Positions 3,163 to 21,939 of a stretch of DNA of 21,939 nucleotides are shown here, one piece after another. This DNA is from a virus. A model generated the notes under the pieces. The model was not told the DNA's origin, made no database searches, and saw only the letters and a program-made list of their open reading frames with translations. The translations under genes and the position numbers were made by a program. Position 1 is the first letter of the stretch. Each line of letters opens with the position of its first letter. The DNA lies in IMG/VR virus record IMGVR_UViG_3300036790_000282, positions 1 through 21,939 of that record. One strand, 5' to 3'.

Positions 3163-3515
3163 TGCCGAAGACGCCGAACCTCAATCGCAAAATCCAGATC
3201 CAGCAGCAGACCACCCAGGCGGATGCTGCCGGTCAGCCGCTCGACAACTGGACAACCGTCTGCACTTGCTGGGCTGAGATCGACATTCAGAACTCTGCGC
3301 TCATTTACAACACCGCCGCGTTTATGTCGAAAGTCGTGCACCGCATCACGATCCGCTGGTCCCGGAGCTACACCTTCGCGCCCAACATGCGCGTCGTATA
3401 TCCCGATCCGGCAACTGGCATCAATCGTGTGTTTAACGTCGAGGCCGTTCTGAACCCGCTCCAGAGCAATCAGTGGGTCACATTCCTGGCCTACGAGCTT
3501 CAGGCCCAGGAGTAA
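3162..3515 (+). CDS. Head-tail joining protein (Phage_H_T_join / SPP1 gp16-like stopper)
   Basis: This protein is the stopper that closes the connector and binds the tail. It has 117 residues from ATG 3162, which overlaps the TGA of the connector gene by one base and has GGGG at 3152-3155. An upstream TTG at 3150 is possible but less likely. The family pattern is visible: LNRKIQIQQQTTQ at the N-terminus, GQPLDNWTTVCTCWAEI, then HRITIRWSRSYTFAPNMRVVY and a final VTFLAYELQ. Length and position between connector and tail terminator are standard. Confidence 0.85.
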   Translation: MPKTPNLNRKIQIQQQTTQADAAGQPLDNWTTVCTCWAEIDIQNSALIYNTAAFMSKVVHRITIRWSRSYTFAPNMRVVYPDPATGINRVFNVEAVLNPLQSNQWVTFLAYELQAQE

Positions 3516-4896: not shown

Positions 4897-5220
4897 ATGT
4901 GGATCTCATGGTGGTCCTTCGCCACCGTGGACCTCGGCCTCAGTAATGAGCAGTTCTATTCGCTCACGCCGCGCATGCTGCACGCGCTCCGCAAGCGCCA
5001 CGAGCGGCAACAGGAGCATCAGGACGCGATGTTGGCTCAGCTCACCTCCTGCCTGGTCAACTTCAGTTATCGCGCCCCCGAGAAGCCGACCAAATGGCAG
5101 GATTTCATGCCCGGCGACAAGTACCAGAGTCAGTCGAGCAAGAAACCCCGACGCCTCACAAAGAAGCGCCGACACGAAATCGTTCAGAACTTCCGGTCCT
5201 GGTTTCCCCGCCAAAAATAA
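4897..5220 (+). CDS. Tail assembly chaperone, second component (gpT / TAC-like)
   Basis: This protein has 107 residues. The N-terminal part (WWSFATVDLGLSNEQFYSLTPRMLHALRKRH) resembles phage tail assembly chaperones that carry a P..F...TP.EL-type motif, and the C-terminus is strongly basic. The start at 4897 has GGGAG at 4889-4893 but only 3 bases of spacing, which is short. The frame is open back to 4822 and reads across the end of the first chaperone gene, so a -1 shift between 4822 and 4867 would fuse the two. I see no canonical X-XXY-YYZ heptamer there. Both routes remain possible. Position between the first chaperone and the gp10-like/tape measure genes supports the call. Confidence 0.65.
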   Translation: MWISWWSFATVDLGLSNEQFYSLTPRMLHALRKRHERQQEHQDAMLAQLTSCLVNFSYRAPEKPTKWQDFMPGDKYQSQSSKKPRRLTKKRRHEIVQNFRSWFPRQK

Positions 5221-13000: not shown

Positions 13001-14171
13001 GTTTAGTGCGTCGGCGACTTCTGCCTGCGTCAATCTGAGTAAGGTACCGTGTCAGGCCGGTGACGTACTGAGCGCCACGGCGATGGCGCTCATCAACACC
13101 AAGCCGACAGGCGCGGTCTGCGTCAGAATCAATTTCTACAATGCCTCCGGAACGGCCATTGCAACTATCGATGGCAACGACATCTCCGGCTCCACATTGA
13201 ACGCTGTCGTGTTCTCCCGCTGCACTGCCACAGCAGGAGCAGGGACGGCATATGCAAGCTTCGACTTTGCTGTGTTTACGACGGCGCACGCCATCGTCAA
13301 TCTCTATTCGATGACCTCCAACTTGAACTTGAGGTCACTGGACGAACTGCCCGATGGCCCGACCTACCAGCGTCCCCTGTACATCACCAATGGTGTTTAC
13401 ACCACATCGAAGGGGCTTGTTCAGCAGGGGTCCATCACCAACCTTGCCGAGGGTGGGGACGGCAGCGTGCTGTCGTACACCGCCAATAACAGCTCCATCG
13501 TGATGTCGTGGGTGGCTTTCTACATCTACGCCCCGGATGGGAACGTCTATACCTGCCCCGCCGGAAGCAAGACCTTCAGCAGCCTGGCGGCCAGTACCAA
13601 ATACTACTTCTGCGCCTACTACCATCTTGTCTCGAACGCGCTCGTGGTTTCATCCACCGGCACAGTGGCCTCGACCCTGCAATTCCAGGCTCAGACGGTG
13701 CAGGGCGACGGAAACGTCGGCGTCTGCATCGACTTCACCTGCTCGACCACCGGCTCCTCCGGACAGAGTGGAGGCACCAGCCCCGGAGGCGGAGGAGGGA
13801 GAGTCTGTTTCTCCCCCAACACTTTGGTTCTCGTTCAGCGGGATGGCGAGGAAGTCGCCGTCCCTATTGCAGAGGTACGACAGGGCGACCTGGTTACGAC
13901 GCTGCTCGGGACCCGGCGTCAGGTGTTCTATGTCTCGGCCACGCGGTATTGCGGCTCGATGCAGATCGTGCCAGAGGTCGGGCTCTCGACCCCGAACCAC
14001 CAGATGTGGGACGGCTCGGCGTGGGTGAATGCCTCGGTGCTCTATCCGACAGAGATTCCTTACGAGGGCACGATCCACAACCTGCACATCGACACCGAAA
14101 CCGATGATGAGCACAGCTACACGCTCGCCAATGGTCAGGTGGTCCACAACCTCTTTACGAATCCCGAATGA
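10035..14171 (+). CDS. Tail tip / central fibre protein (gpJ / megatron-like) with C-terminal Hint domain
   Basis: This protein has 1378 residues and starts at TTG 10035 with GAGGT a few bases upstream. Residues 4-60 are hydrophobic and Gly/Ala-rich, as in many tip proteins. The tip core spans about 60-540 (RQPASYRQIIYGTQRVGGIMVY, FPEIRFTINGKN, ISWNPKRSVSDLVNRVTGTY). A fibronectin-III-like domain lies at about 565-690 (PTGLTIEDD, VLVTWTPPEDTYVANGG). Two carbohydrate-binding-like jelly-roll segments follow at about 733-888 and 950-1091 (NLVPDSDLKFTSAYWTL; ILNPSFANQGTNWSLQSGW). A Gly/Ser/Pro-rich linker at about 1242-1257 leads to a Hint domain at 1258-1372 and a 6-residue tail LFTNPE. It is probably the host-recognition tip, and the Hint domain suggests self-cleavage or ligation. 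Its stop overlaps the next start (ATGA). Confidence 0.85.
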   Translation: MSKALVGAIEIGAAVGLAAATGGAGGILAVAELKGGGFLADLAVSALISGVSMEAGAVADALTQNRGMGITTRQPASYRQIIYGTQRVGGIMVYCSTTGSKHDQYNMVIVLATHECDAIQNLYLDGRRVAWESGSAGQAKSSRNGYTFGGSAADQDLIGPNGQHYNFGSLVYCEARFGDQAEDDVISGLTANDPNWAATAQGSPWLGGCTYIYLKLKADPNMFPQFPEIRFTINGKNNIYDPRTGTSGFTTNWALIAADVIVDPVWGLGSNTVNQDQLVAAANVCDEQVALAAGGTESRLACHWHYDTSTSPGDVLNTLMTTNEGRISRVGGEWFIYPPYWTGVTFSFDENALLGPTISWNPKRSVSDLVNRVTGTYIAPNYPYNVAGNLYDENGWYSGTIQNNWPYAFQPTNYPDFACDQDHGYGTGVDVYLTQDLEIPHPKDLVQPTCLSIAQAQRTAAVSLFRNRQQGSGTLIMNMSAWQMEPGDIMQFSFAPLGWVNKYLEVSLLTLKTGQSQDASGNSVPYQYVEVQVQEADPSVYDWQTSLELNAYDVETAPPATPYNVDAPTGLTIEDDSTTQLVLQDGTTMPRVLVTWTPPEDTYVANGGHIEVQYSLATTANKPMPEILNPVHNPNDNTYSTGWLDAGNYPGIATTCFINSINASQYQNITVQVRAVRSNGASSEWVQVNNHGLNTSQPTIAAGAVTFAETGETLETLEPVSAASAAVVLTATGNQRNLVPDSDLKFTSAYWTLNASIPVANAAGADGANAFVYTGTGSASGYLYNRSAPIPVIPGQSYILSGYIDATAVTAGDDPYWGVYHADMSAMIAGQVQTPGRSGRVSITLTIPSGVTEVRVVCDTSDCTVTSGSKLIFSNPQLELGSVMTSYKSNSADDTSDGWLHETMSSEVQSAIEAGTGQVQNLGGVAASSITPISTLMPAQAGADVTAQAGFVTILNPSFANQGTNWSLQSGWSIQSGYQPQTGSNYVSQFSASATSACVNLSKVPCQAGDVLSATAMALINTKPTGAVCVRINFYNASGTAIATIDGNDISGSTLNAVVFSRCTATAGAGTAYASFDFAVFTTAHAIVNLYSMTSNLNLRSLDELPDGPTYQRPLYITNGVYTTSKGLVQQGSITNLAEGGDGSVLSYTANNSSIVMSWVAFYIYAPDGNVYTCPAGSKTFSSLAASTKYYFCAYYHLVSNALVVSSTGTVASTLQFQAQTVQGDGNVGVCIDFTCSTTGSSGQSGGTSPGGGGGRVCFSPNTLVLVQRDGEEVAVPIAEVRQGDLVTTLLGTRRQVFYVSATRYCGSMQIVPEVGLSTPNHQMWDGSAWVNASVLYPTEIPYEGTIHNLHIDTETDDEHSYTLANGQVVHNLFTNPE
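13806..14150 (+). other. Hint (intein/BIL-type) autoprocessing domain within the tail tip protein
   Basis: This stretch encodes residues 1258-1372 of the tip protein. The first block has Cys1258 followed by FSPNTLVLVQRDGEEV and IAEVRQGDLV, the N-terminal splicing block (C-x4-T-x-V, then I-x-x-V-x-x-GD-V). TPNHQMWDGSAWVNASVL carries the T-x-x-H motif (T1319, H1322). The last block, IHNLHIDTETDDEHSYTLANG followed by QVVHN, ends in His1371-Asn1372. There is no endonuclease insert. The residue after Asn is Leu, not Cys/Ser/Thr, as in type A bacterial intein-like domains, so cleavage rather than normal splicing is expected. Cys, TxxH and HN are all present, so the domain looks active. Confidence 0.82.
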
Positions 14172-17920: not shown

Positions 17921-18219
17921 AGGTCATCCTTTTCAACCAAAATGACAATCTCGTGCAGCTCACCGGCGTCACCGACTCGACGGGCGCACCAGTGACAGGT
18001 GCGATGCTCAGCGGGACGCTTACGCCGGTGGCCGGTGGAGCGGTCGCGGCGAATCTCACGTTTGGCGATCTGAATGGGCAGCCTGGGAACTATCAGGCAT
18101 CACTCCTCGCTGCGGACGTGCCAGCCCCGGGGGCGTATACGCTGGTGGTGTCGGGCACGGCGAACGGCCTGACGCTCAGAGTGCAGGCGGATGCAAAGGT
18201 GCTTACGCGGAGGATATGA
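17917..18219 (+). CDS. Short Ig-like beta-sandwich protein
   Basis: This protein has 100 residues from ATG 17917, with AGGAG at 17905-17909 and an ATGA overlap with the preceding gene. A longer frame from 17860 lacks support. The sequence has the regular form of a small beta sandwich: VILFNQNDNLVQLTGVTD, DSTGAPVTGAMLSGTLTPV, FGDLNGQPGNYQASLLAADV, PGAYTLVVSG, and a final VQADAKVLTRR. Such single-domain proteins occur at the ends of phage tail-fibre operons. It is the last recognisable gene of the rightward late block. A function beyond tail or fibre association cannot be given. Confidence 0.68.
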   Translation: MKVILFNQNDNLVQLTGVTDSTGAPVTGAMLSGTLTPVAGGAVAANLTFGDLNGQPGNYQASLLAADVPAPGAYTLVVSGTANGLTLRVQADAKVLTRRI

Positions 18220-18334: not shown

Positions 18335-18352
18335 CTGAAGAGACTTCTTCAG
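18335..18352. terminator. 7-bp hairpin between the convergent late operon and DUF4238 gene
   Basis: CTGAAGA at 18335-18341 pairs with TCTTCAG at 18346-18352 across GACT. It covers the stop codon of the leftward DUF4238 gene (18349-18351) and lies 115 bases after the last late gene. Without a T tract on either side it is at best a weak terminator. The rest of 18220-18334 holds no gene that I can support. Confidence 0.35.
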
Positions 18353-19287
18353 ACACTCTCTCTCGCGACGAAGGAGTCCTTTGAAAAAAGTGTCCAATCA
18401 TTCTGGCACTGATCCTTAGAGTCAAGCCAGTGGAAGTCTGGTCGATGTGAATAGACTTGTTCATCTGCGGTGAGCATCAGGAACGTATTATGCATTGCAA
18501 TTCTCTTCGTCGTCAGCGGCGGCAGTTTTATCGGCTGTCTTGTTCCGTAGAGGAGAAGGTGACGCGTTGTAGGATAGCTGACCCACGGGGCGTTCACGAT
18601 GCCGTTGGGTTGATTGGGCGGACCGTCCAACGACACTGGGTTGTCCGAACCAATGAACTGACCAGTCTCACTGATTAGCCATCCCCACCGCCTCTGCATC
18701 AGTTCCGGCCCCGCGTCGGGCAGGAGTGCGGCCCCTTGTTTGAAATAGAATTCGACGGGTGGAGAGAACTCTATTTGTCCCGATTTAATGCCCTCTAGGG
18801 CTTGAGCATAATCTGTGCCGGGTTCACCTTTCGAAACTCCGGCGTTACGCAACGCTCGTGCCCATGCCTCTGGGCTACTTAGCGCTTCCTCTTGAAAGCT
18901 TATATCGTAGGCTCTTCGAACGACCTCTCTGAAGGTCGGCACCCTGATCCACTGTATCGCCAGATACTCAACGAGGAGGCCGAGTTCCCATGAGTCCTTC
19001 GGACCTCTCATATCTCTCGTGAGTCTTCTGAGCAAGGGAGCAAGTTTGTCCTCTATCTCCGCAAAATGCGATTCGATTACGAGGGGATCGGGCACAGACG
19101 GGTCATCGATCCTGTTAAAGTCTCGCCGGTGTCCAACCTCCGAAGGTTTGCACCTCCACTGCTTCTTCCTTTTCAGGTCTGTCACGTAGATCATGCCGTC
19201 CGGCTGATCGGTGTCGGTAAACCCGGCGAGCCAACACTGCGGCACAAAATGATGGGCACGAGCTTCGCCAGCGCGTGGGGAGGTCAT
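18349..19287 (-). CDS. DUF4238 domain protein
   Basis: This protein has 312 residues from ATG 19287, which has AAGGTG 9 bases upstream and overlaps the preceding stop (ATGA). The frame is open further to 19695, but that upstream part is Arg/His-rich shadow sequence over another ORF. The N-terminus has the DUF4238 hallmark ARAHHFVPQCWLAGFTD, then MIYVTDLKRKKQWRCKPSEVG, FNRIDDPSVPDPLVIESHFAEIE, and the C-terminal ISETGQFIGSDNPVSLDGP and TTRHLLLYGTRQPI parts are also typical. No biochemical function is established to my knowledge. It is transcribed opposite to the late genes and lies beside the attachment site, where genes expressed in the lysogen (lysogenic conversion or exclusion) are common. 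Codon use is less GC-biased than in the structural genes. Confidence 0.82.
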   Translation of the reverse strand: MTSPRAGEARAHHFVPQCWLAGFTDTDQPDGMIYVTDLKRKKQWRCKPSEVGHRRDFNRIDDPSVPDPLVIESHFAEIEDKLAPLLRRLTRDMRGPKDSWELGLLVEYLAIQWIRVPTFREVVRRAYDISFQEEALSSPEAWARALRNAGVSKGEPGTDYAQALEGIKSGQIEFSPPVEFYFKQGAALLPDAGPELMQRRWGWLISETGQFIGSDNPVSLDGPPNQPNGIVNAPWVSYPTTRHLLLYGTRQPIKLPPLTTKRIAMHNTFLMLTADEQVYSHRPDFHWLDSKDQCQNDWTLFSKDSFVARESV

Positions 19288-19529
19288 TGGCTCAGCACCT
19301 TTTTGAGAATCATCCGAGCCAGTGCAACGCTGTCCGTTACCGCACACGCAACTTTTGGCGTCGGCGTGTCGATGTCGTCGCGGGCCAGACGGACGGCGCA
19401 GATGATGGACGCGCAGATCGCGACGGTGCTGGCGTACCGGGCGCTCTGTTGGTTCTCCCACGCGATCTGGCGTTTCATCTCCCCCATCCCGGCCAGCATA
19501 GGCGAAAATGAGGCGAAAGTCATCCACAA
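19284..19529 (-). CDS. Small membrane-type protein in operon with DUF4238
   Basis: The frame gives up to 81 residues. The likely start is the Met at 19487 (MGEMKRQIAWENQQ) or 19499; no start has a good SD, and the first 14 residues from 19529 overlap the repeated integrase-site-like elements. The product has a polar N-terminus, a hydrophobic stretch (ARYASTVAICASIICAVRLA) and a second weakly hydrophobic helix (VACAVTDSVALARMILKKVL). The stop overlaps the DUF4238 start, so the two are probably made together. No family is recognised. Confidence 0.5.
   Translation of the reverse strand: MWMTFASFSPMLAGMGEMKRQIAWENQQSARYASTVAICASIICAVRLARDDIDTPTPKVACAVTDSVALARMILKKVLSQ
19500..19521 (+). repeat. 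Tandem arm-site-like repeat, copies 1 and 2
   Basis: AGGCGAAAATG at 19500-19510 is followed directly by AGGCGAAAGTC at 19511-19521, an 11-base tandem repeat with two differences. It is the farthest pair from the core. Confidence 0.6.
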
Positions 19530-19637
19530 GCGTCGAGGTATATCCTGCCGATATTGAAGAATTGAGGTTGGGGCTCAAGGTGTCAGTGGCTGTCTCACTG
19601 GCTATCTCGGTTGGCTGGGTCATCAAGCTTTCCACAC

Positions 19638-19648
19638 TGGCGAAAATG
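19638..19648 (+). repeat. Arm-site-like repeat, copy 3
   Basis: TGGCGAAAATG, 10 of 11 bases identical to copy 1. It is preceded by CATCAAGCT 18 bases earlier, which is also found upstream of copy 4. Confidence 0.6.
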
Positions 19649-19703
19649 CTCAGGGCGCTATGGCGCAAGCTGTGTGCGATCTTCTCGAACATCAAGCTAA
19701 TGG

Positions 19704-19714
19704 AGGCGAAAATG
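19704..19714 (+). repeat. Arm-site-like repeat, copy 4
   Basis: AGGCGAAAATG, identical to copy 1. CATCAAGCT occurs shortly before it, as before copy 3. Confidence 0.6.
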
Positions 19715-19836
19715 GCAAAGTCGGCGATGTTGTGCAGATGCGTGCGGTGGGGAGCGGCTCTGTGGGGCCTGGTGGCGTAGTCTCCCAGCCAATCGACGAG
19801 AAGCGGCGACAGACTTCCTGATTACCGCCCCAGCAG

Positions 19837-19870
19837 GGCCGCTGAGGGTTCGATTCCCTCTCCCACACCA
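19837..19870 (+). other. tRNA 3'-end-like sequence, candidate attP core
   Basis: GAGGG-TTCGATT-CCCTC at 19844-19860 is a perfect T arm with a 7-base loop, followed by TCCCACACCA ending in CCA. The 5' side has TGTGGGG at 19761 and GTGGGG at 19747 that could pair with the acceptor strand, but the lengths (over 107 bases) and the lack of D and anticodon arms argue against a complete tRNA. A phage att core that copies the 3' end of a host tRNA gene, so that integration restores it, is the best explanation. Exact core borders cannot be set without the host site. Confidence 0.6.
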
Positions 19871-19871
19871 G

Positions 19872-19878
19872 TTTCGCC
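19872..19878 (-). repeat. Arm-site-like repeat, inverted copy right of the core
   Basis: The complement reads TTGGCGAAAC, sharing GGCGAAA with the four copies to the left. A more degenerate inverted pair follows in 19913-19926 (complement GTGAAAATGACGAAAG). Confidence 0.4.
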
Positions 19879-19886
19879 AACGACAA

Positions 19887-19915
19887 AAAGCCCCGGGCAA
19901 TTGAGCCGGGGCTTT
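19887..19915 (-). terminator. Intrinsic terminator of the leftward integrase operon
   Basis: AAAGCCCCGG (19887-19896) pairs perfectly with CCGGGGCTTT (19906-19915) across 9 bases. Read on the - strand the stem ends in CTTTTTG, a five-T run, 22 bases after the stop of the last operon gene. Read on the + strand it follows the tRNA-like sequence, so it may stop transcription both ways and shield the operons from each other. Confidence 0.85.
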
Positions 19916-19936
19916 CGTCATTTTCACGTCACGCTT

Positions 19937-20386
19937 CTATTGCTGCTTCGCGATGACCTTGCAGATCGGCTTAATCTCTCGCCTGAGCCAGTTCTTCTTG
20001 CTGACGTAAAGCGGATTGTTCGCGCCGTCGAGCAGAACCAACTGGTACAGCACCACGGTGCCGGTCATCAGACTGCTGACCTTCTGATAGTCGGTGTGGA
20101 TTGTGAGCGAGTGCGGCGTCTGCGGATTCGTTACGAACGAGGCGGCGGGGCATTCGTCGGAGAAGCGGCGATAGACCTCCCAAATCTCCGAATGCTCGTA
20201 AGTGCTGGTGTTGGCACCGCCTCCGGCGACGACAACTCCGCCGACGTTCGTCGCTGCGCCTGCCGCGCTGGTCGCGCTGTCTGTTTCGGTGTTGGCAGCG
20301 ATGAGGACGACGGGACGTGTCTGAGCACTGGCAACCGCACATAGAGAGCCAAGGACAAGCAGCAACAGTACAGCCAGCGATTTCAT
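19937..20386 (-). CDS. Secreted small protein (internal start of the 255-residue frame)
   Basis: This start gives 149 residues. AAAGGAAGAAGG precedes ATG 20386 with 4 bases of spacing (AAAGGAAG is further away). The N-terminus MKSLAVLLLLVLGSLCAVAS-A|QTRP is a classical signal peptide with cleavage after ASA (residue 21). The mature part has a Gly/Ala/Val-rich segment (GAATNVGGVVVAGGGANTST) and a folded-looking C-terminus (EIWEVYRRFSDECPAASFVTN, TPHSLTIHTDYQKVSSLMTGTVVLYQLVLLD, SKKNWLRREIKPICKVIAKQ). Two mature cysteines could form a disulfide. Such a protein in an integrase operon suggests an exported product of the lysogen. The function is unknown. Confidence 0.55.
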   Translation of the reverse strand: MKSLAVLLLLVLGSLCAVASAQTRPVVLIAANTETDSATSAAGAATNVGGVVVAGGGANTSTYEHSEIWEVYRRFSDECPAASFVTNPQTPHSLTIHTDYQKVSSLMTGTVVLYQLVLLDGANNPLYVSKKNWLRREIKPICKVIAKQQ

Positions 20387-20704
20387 CGACCTTCTTCCTT
20401 TCGGTTCGTCTTCGTGGGACATTGTTTCGGGCCAGGGCCGAGCCGGGCAATCACTCGACCGGGGCATCTCCAGGATCTTCGCTTTCCGCTGACCTGGAGG
20501 CGGCTCGTCCGGATCGAAGCCAGGAGGGGCTTTAGAGTCGAGCCCGATGCACCAGAGTACTCCGGAGTGCTCCAGATACCAGGAGGCGATCACCAACTGA
20601 TCGCACGTCCGCCAGTATTCCGTGCTCGCGGGCTCGACCTGGCGAAGCTGATCGACGAGCCCACAGAGTTCGCGGAGCGTAATGTCGAGGACGTCCTTCG
20701 TCAT
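19937..20704 (-). CDS. 255-residue ORF: cytoplasmic-type N-terminal part joined in frame to a secreted protein
   Basis: The start at 20704 has AAAGGGG upstream and overlaps the preceding stop (ATGA), so it is well supported. Residues 1-55 are helical and acidic (DVLDITLRELCGLVDQLRQVEP, STEYWRTCDQLVIASWYLEH), then 56-105 are Pro/Asp/Lys-rich and look disordered. At residue 107 a complete signal peptide begins, itself with a strong SD (see the entry ending at 20386). A signal peptide in the middle of a protein is unusual. Either the longer product is a membrane-anchored protein, or a stop codon that once separated two genes has been lost. No homologue recognised for the first part. Confidence 0.6.
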   Translation of the reverse strand: MTKDVLDITLRELCGLVDQLRQVEPASTEYWRTCDQLVIASWYLEHSGVLWCIGLDSKAPPGFDPDEPPPGQRKAKILEMPRSSDCPARPWPETMSHEDEPKGRRSMKSLAVLLLLVLGSLCAVASAQTRPVVLIAANTETDSATSAAGAATNVGGVVVAGGGANTSTYEHSEIWEVYRRFSDECPAASFVTNPQTPHSLTIHTDYQKVSSLMTGTVVLYQLVLLDGANNPLYVSKKNWLRREIKPICKVIAKQQ

Positions 20705-21021
20705 ATCCGCACCCCTTTCATCCGACGGGCCTGGGCGCGACGACGACGCGCTTCCGCCGCGAACACGGTGTGCCGTGGATCGCCGGACTTCTTCAGAGTC
20801 TCTGCTATATCAGCGATTCGTCCGGCCTGAACCAGTAGGGCGTTCGTCTCAGCGAACTGCTCTCTCAGCACGTCATTCGCTCGGCGTGCACGCCGCTGAT
20901 CCCAGTCCTGAGGGTCAAAATGTCTGCCGATCTTCATCTTCCTACGACGGCTAGTGGGCAAATGAAAACCTTCGAAGAGCGACGCCAGTTCGGCGGTCGT
21001 CCGGATCGGAGTCGTGCTCAT
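20701..21021 (-). CDS. Basic hypothetical protein in the integrase operon
   Basis: This protein has 106 residues. GGAGGTG lies 6 bases before ATG 21021, and its start and stop overlap both neighbours (ATGA on each side). The sequence is Arg-rich: TSRRRKMKIGRHFDPQDWDQRRARRANDV in the middle and AAEARRRRAQARRMKGVRI at the end, with a helical ALLVQAGRIADIAETLKKSG stretch between. It could bind nucleic acid. Directionality factors (Xis) are small and basic and often sit by int, but I see no clear helix-turn-helix, so I do not assign it. Confidence 0.65.
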   Translation of the reverse strand: MSTTPIRTTAELASLFEGFHLPTSRRRKMKIGRHFDPQDWDQRRARRANDVLREQFAETNALLVQAGRIADIAETLKKSGDPRHTVFAAEARRRRAQARRMKGVRI

Positions 21022-21179
21022 CGCGCACCTCCGCGCCGGAAGATGACGTTCCTGTGAGCCTGCATCACGCTTCTGCTCCTCTCACCCTGATCTGGAGCAC
21101 AAGGCGGAAGTCGGCGAAGTTCGACCTGCATCCGGGAGATGCGGCGGCGAGCGCTGCGACTGCGAGTGATGATGGTCAT
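21018..21179 (-). CDS. 53-residue Arg-rich protein between integrase and the 106-aa gene
   Basis: The ORF reads MTIITRSRSARRRISRMQ, then VELRRLPPCAPDQGERSRS, and ends NVIFRRGGAR. GGGAGG is 6 bases before the ATG, an excellent SD. Its ATG overlaps the integrase stop (ATGA) and its stop overlaps the ATG of the 106-aa gene (ATGA). Spacing, SD and overlaps together make translation likely despite the short length. About a quarter of residues are Arg, so an RNA- or DNA-binding role, including as an excision factor, is conceivable. No family is recognised. Confidence 0.6.
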   Translation of the reverse strand: MTIITRSRSARRRISRMQVELRRLPPCAPDQGERSRSVMQAHRNVIFRRGGAR

Positions 21180-21939
21180 CGCGAACCTCCCTCGTCGCCC
21201 GCCAGCGTGACACTCGCCCCCATCCGTCCCATCGCCTCGATCATCTTCCGCTCAAGCCGATGCTGGCGCTGCTTCACCCAGGGTGAGTAGTACCTCTCTG
21301 TGATACGGATGGACGCGTGGCCCAGCATCTTGCTCACGTCCTCAAGCGGCACGCCAGCCAGCAGCATCTCGACGGCGAACGTGTCGCGCAGCATGTGAGA
21401 GTGGAATTCCAGGGGCTTCCCGTGCTCATCCCGGAATGAAAGATGCTTTTCGTTCAAACGCGCGATCTTCTGCGTCCAGGTGGTGGAGAGAGAGGCCAGA
21501 GTGCAGGTCCTCGACCAGAAGAAGTAGTCCGCGTGGATGCCGGGTCGAGCAGGAAGATCATTGAGCGCCCGAACGACATGATCGGGAACGATGACGCTGA
21601 TCGGGCGGCCCGACTTCTTCATCCTCGTCGTGAGCCGGTTCCCGACGATGGCCCGGCGTGGCAGGGCGGCGGCGTCGCCGATCCGGAGCCCGGTCCAGCG
21701 CATGAGGAGGAACAGCGCACGTAGCTCGTGCCCCAAGCGGTCGCACTCGCGCCGCTGCCCCTCGTCGTACTGATCGGTCGCGGCGAGGAGTTCCTCGAAC
21801 TGCTCCTGCGTGAGCGGTAGAGTCTGCTTCTGGTCGCCTTCGATCGCCTCCAGGTGATCGCTTGGATCGCGCTCGATGTGTCGGAGCTTCGTCGCCCACC
21901 AGAAGAATTGCCGCAGGTGACCCAGGAACGCCTTCTGGG
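21176..21939 (-). CDS. int: Tyrosine-recombinase integrase (N-terminus beyond the window)
   Basis: About 254 C-terminal residues are present; the frame is open to the right edge. The core-binding domain end reads LGHLRQFFWWATKLRHIERDPSDHLE. Counting from the Met at 21736, the catalytic residues are R18 (TGLRIGD), K40/41 (RMKKSG), H114 and R117 (HMLR), H140 (LGH) and Y149 (TERYY), i.e. the full R-K-H-R-H-Y set. The C-terminal segment MLLAGVPLEDVSKMLGHASIR is standard for phage integrases. It should recombine attP with a host tRNA-gene att site. The gene reads toward the attachment region 1.3 kb away and is the first of at least four tightly coupled genes. Confidence 0.93.
   Translation of the reverse strand, partial: QKAFLGHLRQFFWWATKLRHIERDPSDHLEAIEGDQKQTLPLTQEQFEELLAATDQYDEGQRRECDRLGHELRALFLLMRWTGLRIGDAAALPRRAIVGNRLTTRMKKSGRPISVIVPDHVVRALNDLPARPGIHADYFFWSRTCTLASLSTTWTQKIARLNEKHLSFRDEHGKPLEFHSHMLRDTFAVEMLLAGVPLEDVSKMLGHASIRITERYYSPWVKQRQHRLERKMIEAMGRMGASVTLAGDEGGSR

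Follow-up and report, generated by a model that had tools for sequence, protein, structure and literature searches.

A candidate attP with 11-nt-spaced repeats near the tyrosine integrase gene of a tailed phage

Gene content around the repeat region

The window analyzed here is an entire virus record of 21,939 bases. Its genes, including those for a prohead protease, an HK97-type capsid, and a J-like tail protein, are those of a tailed phage. Late genes extend along the + strand to position 18219 and are followed on the − strand by a DUF4238 gene (positions 18349 to 19290), small frames, and a tyrosine integrase gene. The DUF4238 gene (PF14022; E value, 7.4e-29) lies between the late genes and the candidate att region, a spot that often houses accessory cargo genes. 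At the C-terminal end of the J-like tail protein (window positions 13785 to 14171), a Hint-like domain was identified (Pfam Vint; E value, 1.1e-5, slightly below the curated cut-off) that terminates in HN and a few residues, and the protein could possibly be self-processing. No close relatives of the phage were found by DNA among phage records, nor among viral contigs when the integrase, DUF4238 protein, J-like protein, or capsid was used as a single query.

The integrase fragment carries the full catalytic set (R-K-H-R-H-Y). Its PF00589 domain lies 1.3 kb from the repeats and the tRNA-like sequence, with two genes between the latter and the integrase, and the presence of an integrase gene nearby, proposed in an earlier sequence-only reading of this DNA, was confirmed. 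As the N-terminus and the region upstream of the gene are located beyond the contig, a second attP, or the true one, could lie there. When a two-sequence integrase alignment was used as the query, two remote matches (23 to 24% identity) were returned among viral contigs.

Coding statistics are weak across positions 19500 to 19936, between the late-gene/DUF4238 side and the integrase side. The + strand ORF covering the repeats scored 0.00 bits per codon, compared with 0.23 for one of five other + strand genes tested and 0.36 to 0.48 for the remaining four; given these neutral codon statistics, the stretch looks noncoding. A 21-nt stretch left of the tRNA-like sequence (19798 to 19818) has a 90% identical counterpart at 20160 to 20180, within the − strand frame between the tRNA-like sequence and the integrase, and may have been duplicated from that gene into the att region. 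Features of the region are listed in Table 1.

Table 1. Coordinates of repeats, candidate sites, and neighboring genes in the window
Feature	Position	Strand	Basis
GGCGAAA	19501-19507, 19512-19518, 19639-19645, 19705-19711	+	Motif count
GGCGAAA	19872-19878	-	Motif count
Candidate outer P-arm integrase sites: AGGCGAAAATG / AGGCGAAAGTC in tandem, 11-nt period	19500..19521	+	Only period-11 tandem scoring >=7 in window
TGGCGAAAATG, candidate P-arm site	19638..19648	+	Motif count
AGGCGAAAATG and, at 9-nt spacing, the incomplete copy GGCAAAGTC (by eye); candidate inner P-arm site	19704..19722	+	
Candidate attP core resembling a tRNA 3' end, with T arm, short acceptor strand, and CCA	19844..19870	+	
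TGGCGAAACTG, one inverted copy that includes the last two bases of CCA; doubtful as an arm site	19869..19879	-	
Perfect 10-bp inverted repeat, 9-nt loop, then T-rich sequence; likely transcription terminator	19887..19915	.	
CGTGAAAATGACGAAAGCC, degenerate inverted motif pair, near the ~+71 spot of the P' pair of relatives	about 19910..19928	-	By eye
ORF(s) between core and integrase	19937..20704	-	Tested part 19937-20386 without family match
Small basic protein gene adjoining integrase	20701..21021	-	Weak unknown-function PHROG match only
Tyrosine integrase, catalytic part; N-terminus cut by record end	21176..21937	-	PF00589, E = 4.3e-19

Distribution of the GGCGAAA repeats

The 21.9-kb window has 10 copies of GGCGAAA against an expected 2.9, and none of 100 shuffles reached 10 or more copies. 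Half of them fall within 378 nt (19501 to 19878), and these are the five motifs that had been picked out earlier, the starts then given being those of 8-mers that include the preceding base. The extension of three copies to an identical longer motif was also borne out: GGCGAAAATG is found exactly at 19501, 19639, and 19705 (span, 19501 to 19714) and is absent from the rest of the window. All three end in ATG, and they share a single frame of a 90-codon ORF (19508 to 19780). The previously noted tandem pair is present with an 11-nt period, and its 19-nt sequence has matches in three viral contigs. Relative to the first G of GGTTC (19847), the tandem pair is at −347 and the single copies are at −209 and −143. 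Arm sites had been proposed on both sides of the core. Copies are present on the P side, whereas the P′ side carries only one inverted copy, which touches the core, and a degenerate inverted pair, the latter also anticipated and here located by eye.

The sequence-only reading put the chance expectation for these motifs at about 0.05; the arithmetic is right but takes no account of the other motifs and locations that might equally have caught attention. Among 100 order-2 Markov copies of the window, some 7-mer occurred at least five times within 400 nt in 38 and some 10-mer occurred three times in 7; the raw cluster count alone is weak as evidence. At least one period-11 tandem scoring ≥8 was present in 87 of 200 Markov windows. 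A perfect 8-mer tandem with a period of 9 to 12, its 7-mer recurring to five copies in 400 nt, was obtained in 9 of 600 simulated windows, or in 3 of 600 when the tandem was restricted to period 11, making chance unlikely but not absurd on sequence alone.

A tRNA-like sequence as the candidate core

The tRNA 3′-end-like sequence proposed as the core begins with a perfect 5-bp T stem and a TTCGATT loop (19844 to 19860), followed by TCCCACA and CCA up to 19870. The tRNA-like sequence of the earlier description is present, but the acceptor strand is one nucleotide short (10 nt after the T stem compared with 11 in a normal tRNA), and the sequence is an exact copy of no searched bacterial sequence. 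Folding of the stretch as RNA was ordinary (z = −1.72). ARAGORN at default settings identified no tRNA in the window, and an intact tRNA or tmRNA was rejected, as lowered thresholds gave inconsistent calls only. Rfam reported a subthreshold tRNA-Sec match (19.2 bits versus 47), and tRNA-Sec was consequently checked in 41 genomes of the order; 10 loci were fetched, and none of the four tRNA-Sec ends inspected matched the core. The nearest 3′ ends among the 47 tRNAs of the fetched loci belonged to tRNA-Cys and tRNA-Ser(TGA). These have the T arm in common with the core and differ from it at the terminus, so neither is claimed as attB.

Searches for the core itself returned no loci in the genome collection with an exact 24-mer, none in 12 and none in 298 genomes with up to three mismatches, and none in 399 genomes with the T arm plus ACACCA at free spacing. 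With up to two mismatches, no match was found in 396 genomes of the phylum, a set that may not include the host of the phage. The 27-nt core was found in no viral contigs. As a positive control, the core of Tunturiibacter phage Tunturi_4 matched host tRNAs exactly.

Related integrases and their tandem repeats

Tunturi_4 carries the nearest integrase relative in phage records (39% identity to that of the window), and the closest relatives, loci L005 to L009, share 45 to 52% identity. Thirteen relatives were found in bacterial genomes, all labelled as Acidobacteriota-type organisms, and at an E value of ≤1e-15, 86 of the 298 genomes searched within the order carry one. Relatives in Acidobacteriaceae adjoin tRNA, tmRNA, or protein genes. 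Several are located directly to the right of tRNA-Phe, tRNA-Ala, tRNA-Lys, or tmRNA genes, while L005, L007, and L008 come after protein-coding frames (lexA, phosphatase, and ABC-type gene; by eye). In L007, from an Acidobacteriaceae MAG, four CRISPR-like repeats of the GTCTATCCCCGCACGTGCGGGGGAACC type were seen by eye at ∼4910 to 5125, a few hundred bases to the right of the integrase.

The first catalytic arginine (GLR), which the window integrase retains, is replaced by alanine (GLA) in 11 integrases, including that of Tunturi_4, in which the lysine, HxxR, later histidine, and tyrosine are all retained. Alanine was found at this position in 13 of the 44 aligned sequences (window counted), two of which (L003 and L004) were also without other residues. 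The GLA-type integrase L014 belongs to an element in genome G010 whose two ends are both integrated, which suggests that the enzyme was functional.

Tandem repeats with periods of 7 to 30 were scored across the 230 nt that precede the integrase N-terminal motif in 37 of 46 loci; two duplicates, from the same places as L006 and L009, and seven loci with an unrecognizable integrase N-terminus were left out. The highest-scoring period was 11 in 26 of the 37, and a score of ≥7 at this period was obtained in 29, compared with 5.6% of 4,400 random windows from the same loci; every other period from 7 to 30 reached this score in at most 4 loci. Because the loci are related (seven, for example, have GTACGATA), they amount to fewer than 37 independent cases. 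The period-11 score of 6 obtained for L014 reflects sequence within the tRNA, and the arm pair of this locus is visible by eye only. A clear tandem pair was not found in three loci, and period-11 pairs were absent from −400 to +250 around two tRNA 3′-end fragments. Eight relatives (L005 to L010, L013, and L015) have the pair immediately before the integrase start. The motif of the pair varies from element to element, even among those at tRNA-Phe, where GCAAG, CGTAC, and CCGAAC types were found.

Both arms could be seen in a few elements. Tunturi_4 has a 25-nt core, the 3′ end of tRNA-Lys, just left of its integrase, with zero-mismatch copies in four of six genomes, within tRNA-Lys genes. Pairs of TTGGGAAAGT with an 11-nt period flank this core at positions 3239 and 3411 of its locus, a single TGGGAAAG lies at 3177, and all five TGGGAAAG copies of the 8.6-kb locus fall within 3177 to 3430 as two direct 11-nt pairs and one single. 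In G010, 16.4 kb separates two tRNA-Lys 3′ ends; TTGCATTACTT-TTGCATTAGCA is found ∼100 nt left of the core at the right end and TTGCCTTACTT-TTGTATTAGTT right of the core at the left end (by eye), the arm motif being TTGCATTA and the left-end copy diverged. Genome G208 (motif AACGTAC) has AACGTACA twice at +71 at the left end and, 46 kb away, CAACGTAC twice at −159 at the right end. Genome G231 (motif TCCGAAC) has three tRNA-Phe ends in a row, with pairs at +71; at −159 plus a further one at +229; and at −161. On its contig C6, these ends (L095, L094, and L091) are ∼123 and 15 kb apart, each with TCCGAAC tandem pairs, and the arrangement resembles a serial array of elements inserted at a single tRNA. 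The integrases of the G208 and G231 elements are 26 to 27% identical to that of the window. In L088 and L095, the integrase is on the P′ side, to the right of the tRNA, and oriented towards the core, the same arrangement as in the window. From their position and repetition, the tandem pairs of these relatives would be arm sites.

The 11-nt pairs are common around related integrases, but the window pair lies farther out, 347 nt from the core on the P side versus 100 to 161 nt in four relatives. Direct pairs on the right side of relatives are 62 to 73 nt from the first G of GGTTC; the window has no direct 11-nt pair at ∼+71 and no period-11 pair scoring ≥7 except at 19500.

Interpretation of the region as an attP

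Taken together, the window is probably home to a lambda-type attP in which GGCGAAAATG would be the arm motif and the tRNA-like stretch the core, the host being absent from the collections. For a temperate Acidobacteriota phage, positions ∼19500 to 19930 would form the attP of a tyrosine integrase system of this type. Copies of AGGCGAAAATG would act as arm-type sites for the N-terminal domain of the integrase, which would bind the copies of the tandem pair one helical turn apart, and the catalytic domain would act at the core, with its resemblance to a tRNA T arm and 3′ end. The observed features are the repeats, the 11-nt spacing of the tandem, an integrase gene close by, and relatives with the same geometry; binding of the copies by the integrase, use of the tRNA-like stretch as core, and an acidobacterial host are what we infer. 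Given the 11-nt pairs and two-sided motifs of relatives, arm-type sites are the best reading of the repeats, and to that extent the earlier proposal is supported. The short and unmatched core, the inverted and degenerate repeats on the far side, and the 347-nt distance of the tandem do not fit it. In a more novel variant, the core would be a tRNA mimic, matching no tRNA 3′ end any more; the left arm would be unusually long (∼350 nt), and the arm sites would face opposite ways on the two sides. The integrase would have kept the T-arm shape as core and moved to a different target or a diverged tRNA. This variant is considered improbable.

As the main alternative, the real attP could be located off the contig, ahead of the integrase start, as in most relatives. 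The 19500 to 19930 stretch would then be an additional or decayed att site, or what remains of a tRNA together with leftover arm sites. The eight relatives with a pair immediately upstream of the integrase start, a region that is off the contig here, invite this explanation, and so do the core without a host match, its acceptor strand one nucleotide short, and the degenerate P′ side. However, the L088 and L095 integrases point towards the core as in the window, three identical 10-mers inside 214 nt do not have the look of decay, and in Cluster J mycobacteriophages attP is placed 3′ of int (PMC3706429). On balance, such a displaced attP is unlikely.

Two further explanations dispense with the integrase. 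The repeats could be operators of a transcription regulator acting at divergent starts near 19499 (− strand gene) and 19508 (+ strand ORF), as the tandem pair sits between the − strand gene start and the + strand ATG, and some regulators also use short direct repeats. Against this, the copies at 19638 and 19704 are 130 to 200 nt inside the + strand ORF, the codon statistics of that ORF are neutral, the inverted copy touches the tRNA-like end, and no regulator gene was recognized among the proteins scanned; a role as operators is very unlikely. That the cluster arose by chance, or consists of translation-start sequences in which AGGCGAAAATG is a ribosome site plus ATG, the copies having no common function, gains something from the ATG ending every GGCGAAAATG in a single frame of ORF 19508-19780 and from the frequencies with which Markov windows reached five 7-mers in 400 nt (38/100) or three 10-mers (7/100). 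Yet exact GGCGAAAATG is found nowhere else in the window and so stands at no other gene start, the tandem with its cluster arose in only 9 of 600 simulations, and the position beside a tRNA-like end and an integrase agrees with that in relatives. We give this explanation little credence.

Integration sites of Acidobacteriota phages are little described, and a literature search found no papers on their att sites. Comparison of the loci provides a usable rule, namely, that arm pairs of these integrases would be one helical turn (11 nt) apart with an element-specific motif. As the motif changes between elements even at one tRNA, it may be an address label, which may keep elements sharing a tRNA apart. 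What was a vague repeat cluster in the window becomes a probable, testable attP.

Comparison with known att systems

The attP of phage lambda has arm-type sites on both sides of its core and adjoins the integrase gene, and the lambda core is not in a tRNA gene. The window would differ from lambda attP in its sites, host-factor sites, and arm lengths.

In the Cluster J mycobacteriophages (Omega and BAKA), a tyrosine integrase is encoded with attP 3′ of int; the core is 44 bp, identical to a host tRNA-Leu, and ∼100 bp from int, and pairs of 10-bp imperfect direct repeats (TGCATAC...) on both sides of it are putative arm sites (PMC3706429). The tyrosine integrase, the attP on its 3′ side, the tRNA or tRNA-like core, and the short repeat pairs are alike in the two systems, whereas the window has an 11-nt period, a core unmatched in a host, two genes from core to integrase, and right-hand sites that are inverted and degenerate. 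The attP of ICEMlSym(R7A) has five arm-type motifs of ∼10 bp in 283 bp, all five shown to be necessary for efficient integration (PMC11963761). The five motifs of the window can be likened to these ∼10-bp arm-type motifs, although motif and host differ.

Tunturi_4 is unlike the window in that its core is tRNA-Lys, its direct pairs lie on both sides of the core at ∼−100 and +72, and its integrase starts just to the right of the core. The two are alike in having related integrases, a tRNA-like core, and 11-nt tandem pairs, and the last copies of these pairs, TTGGGAAAGTC in Tunturi_4 and AGGCGAAAGTC in the window, have 8 of 11 letters in common (by eye).
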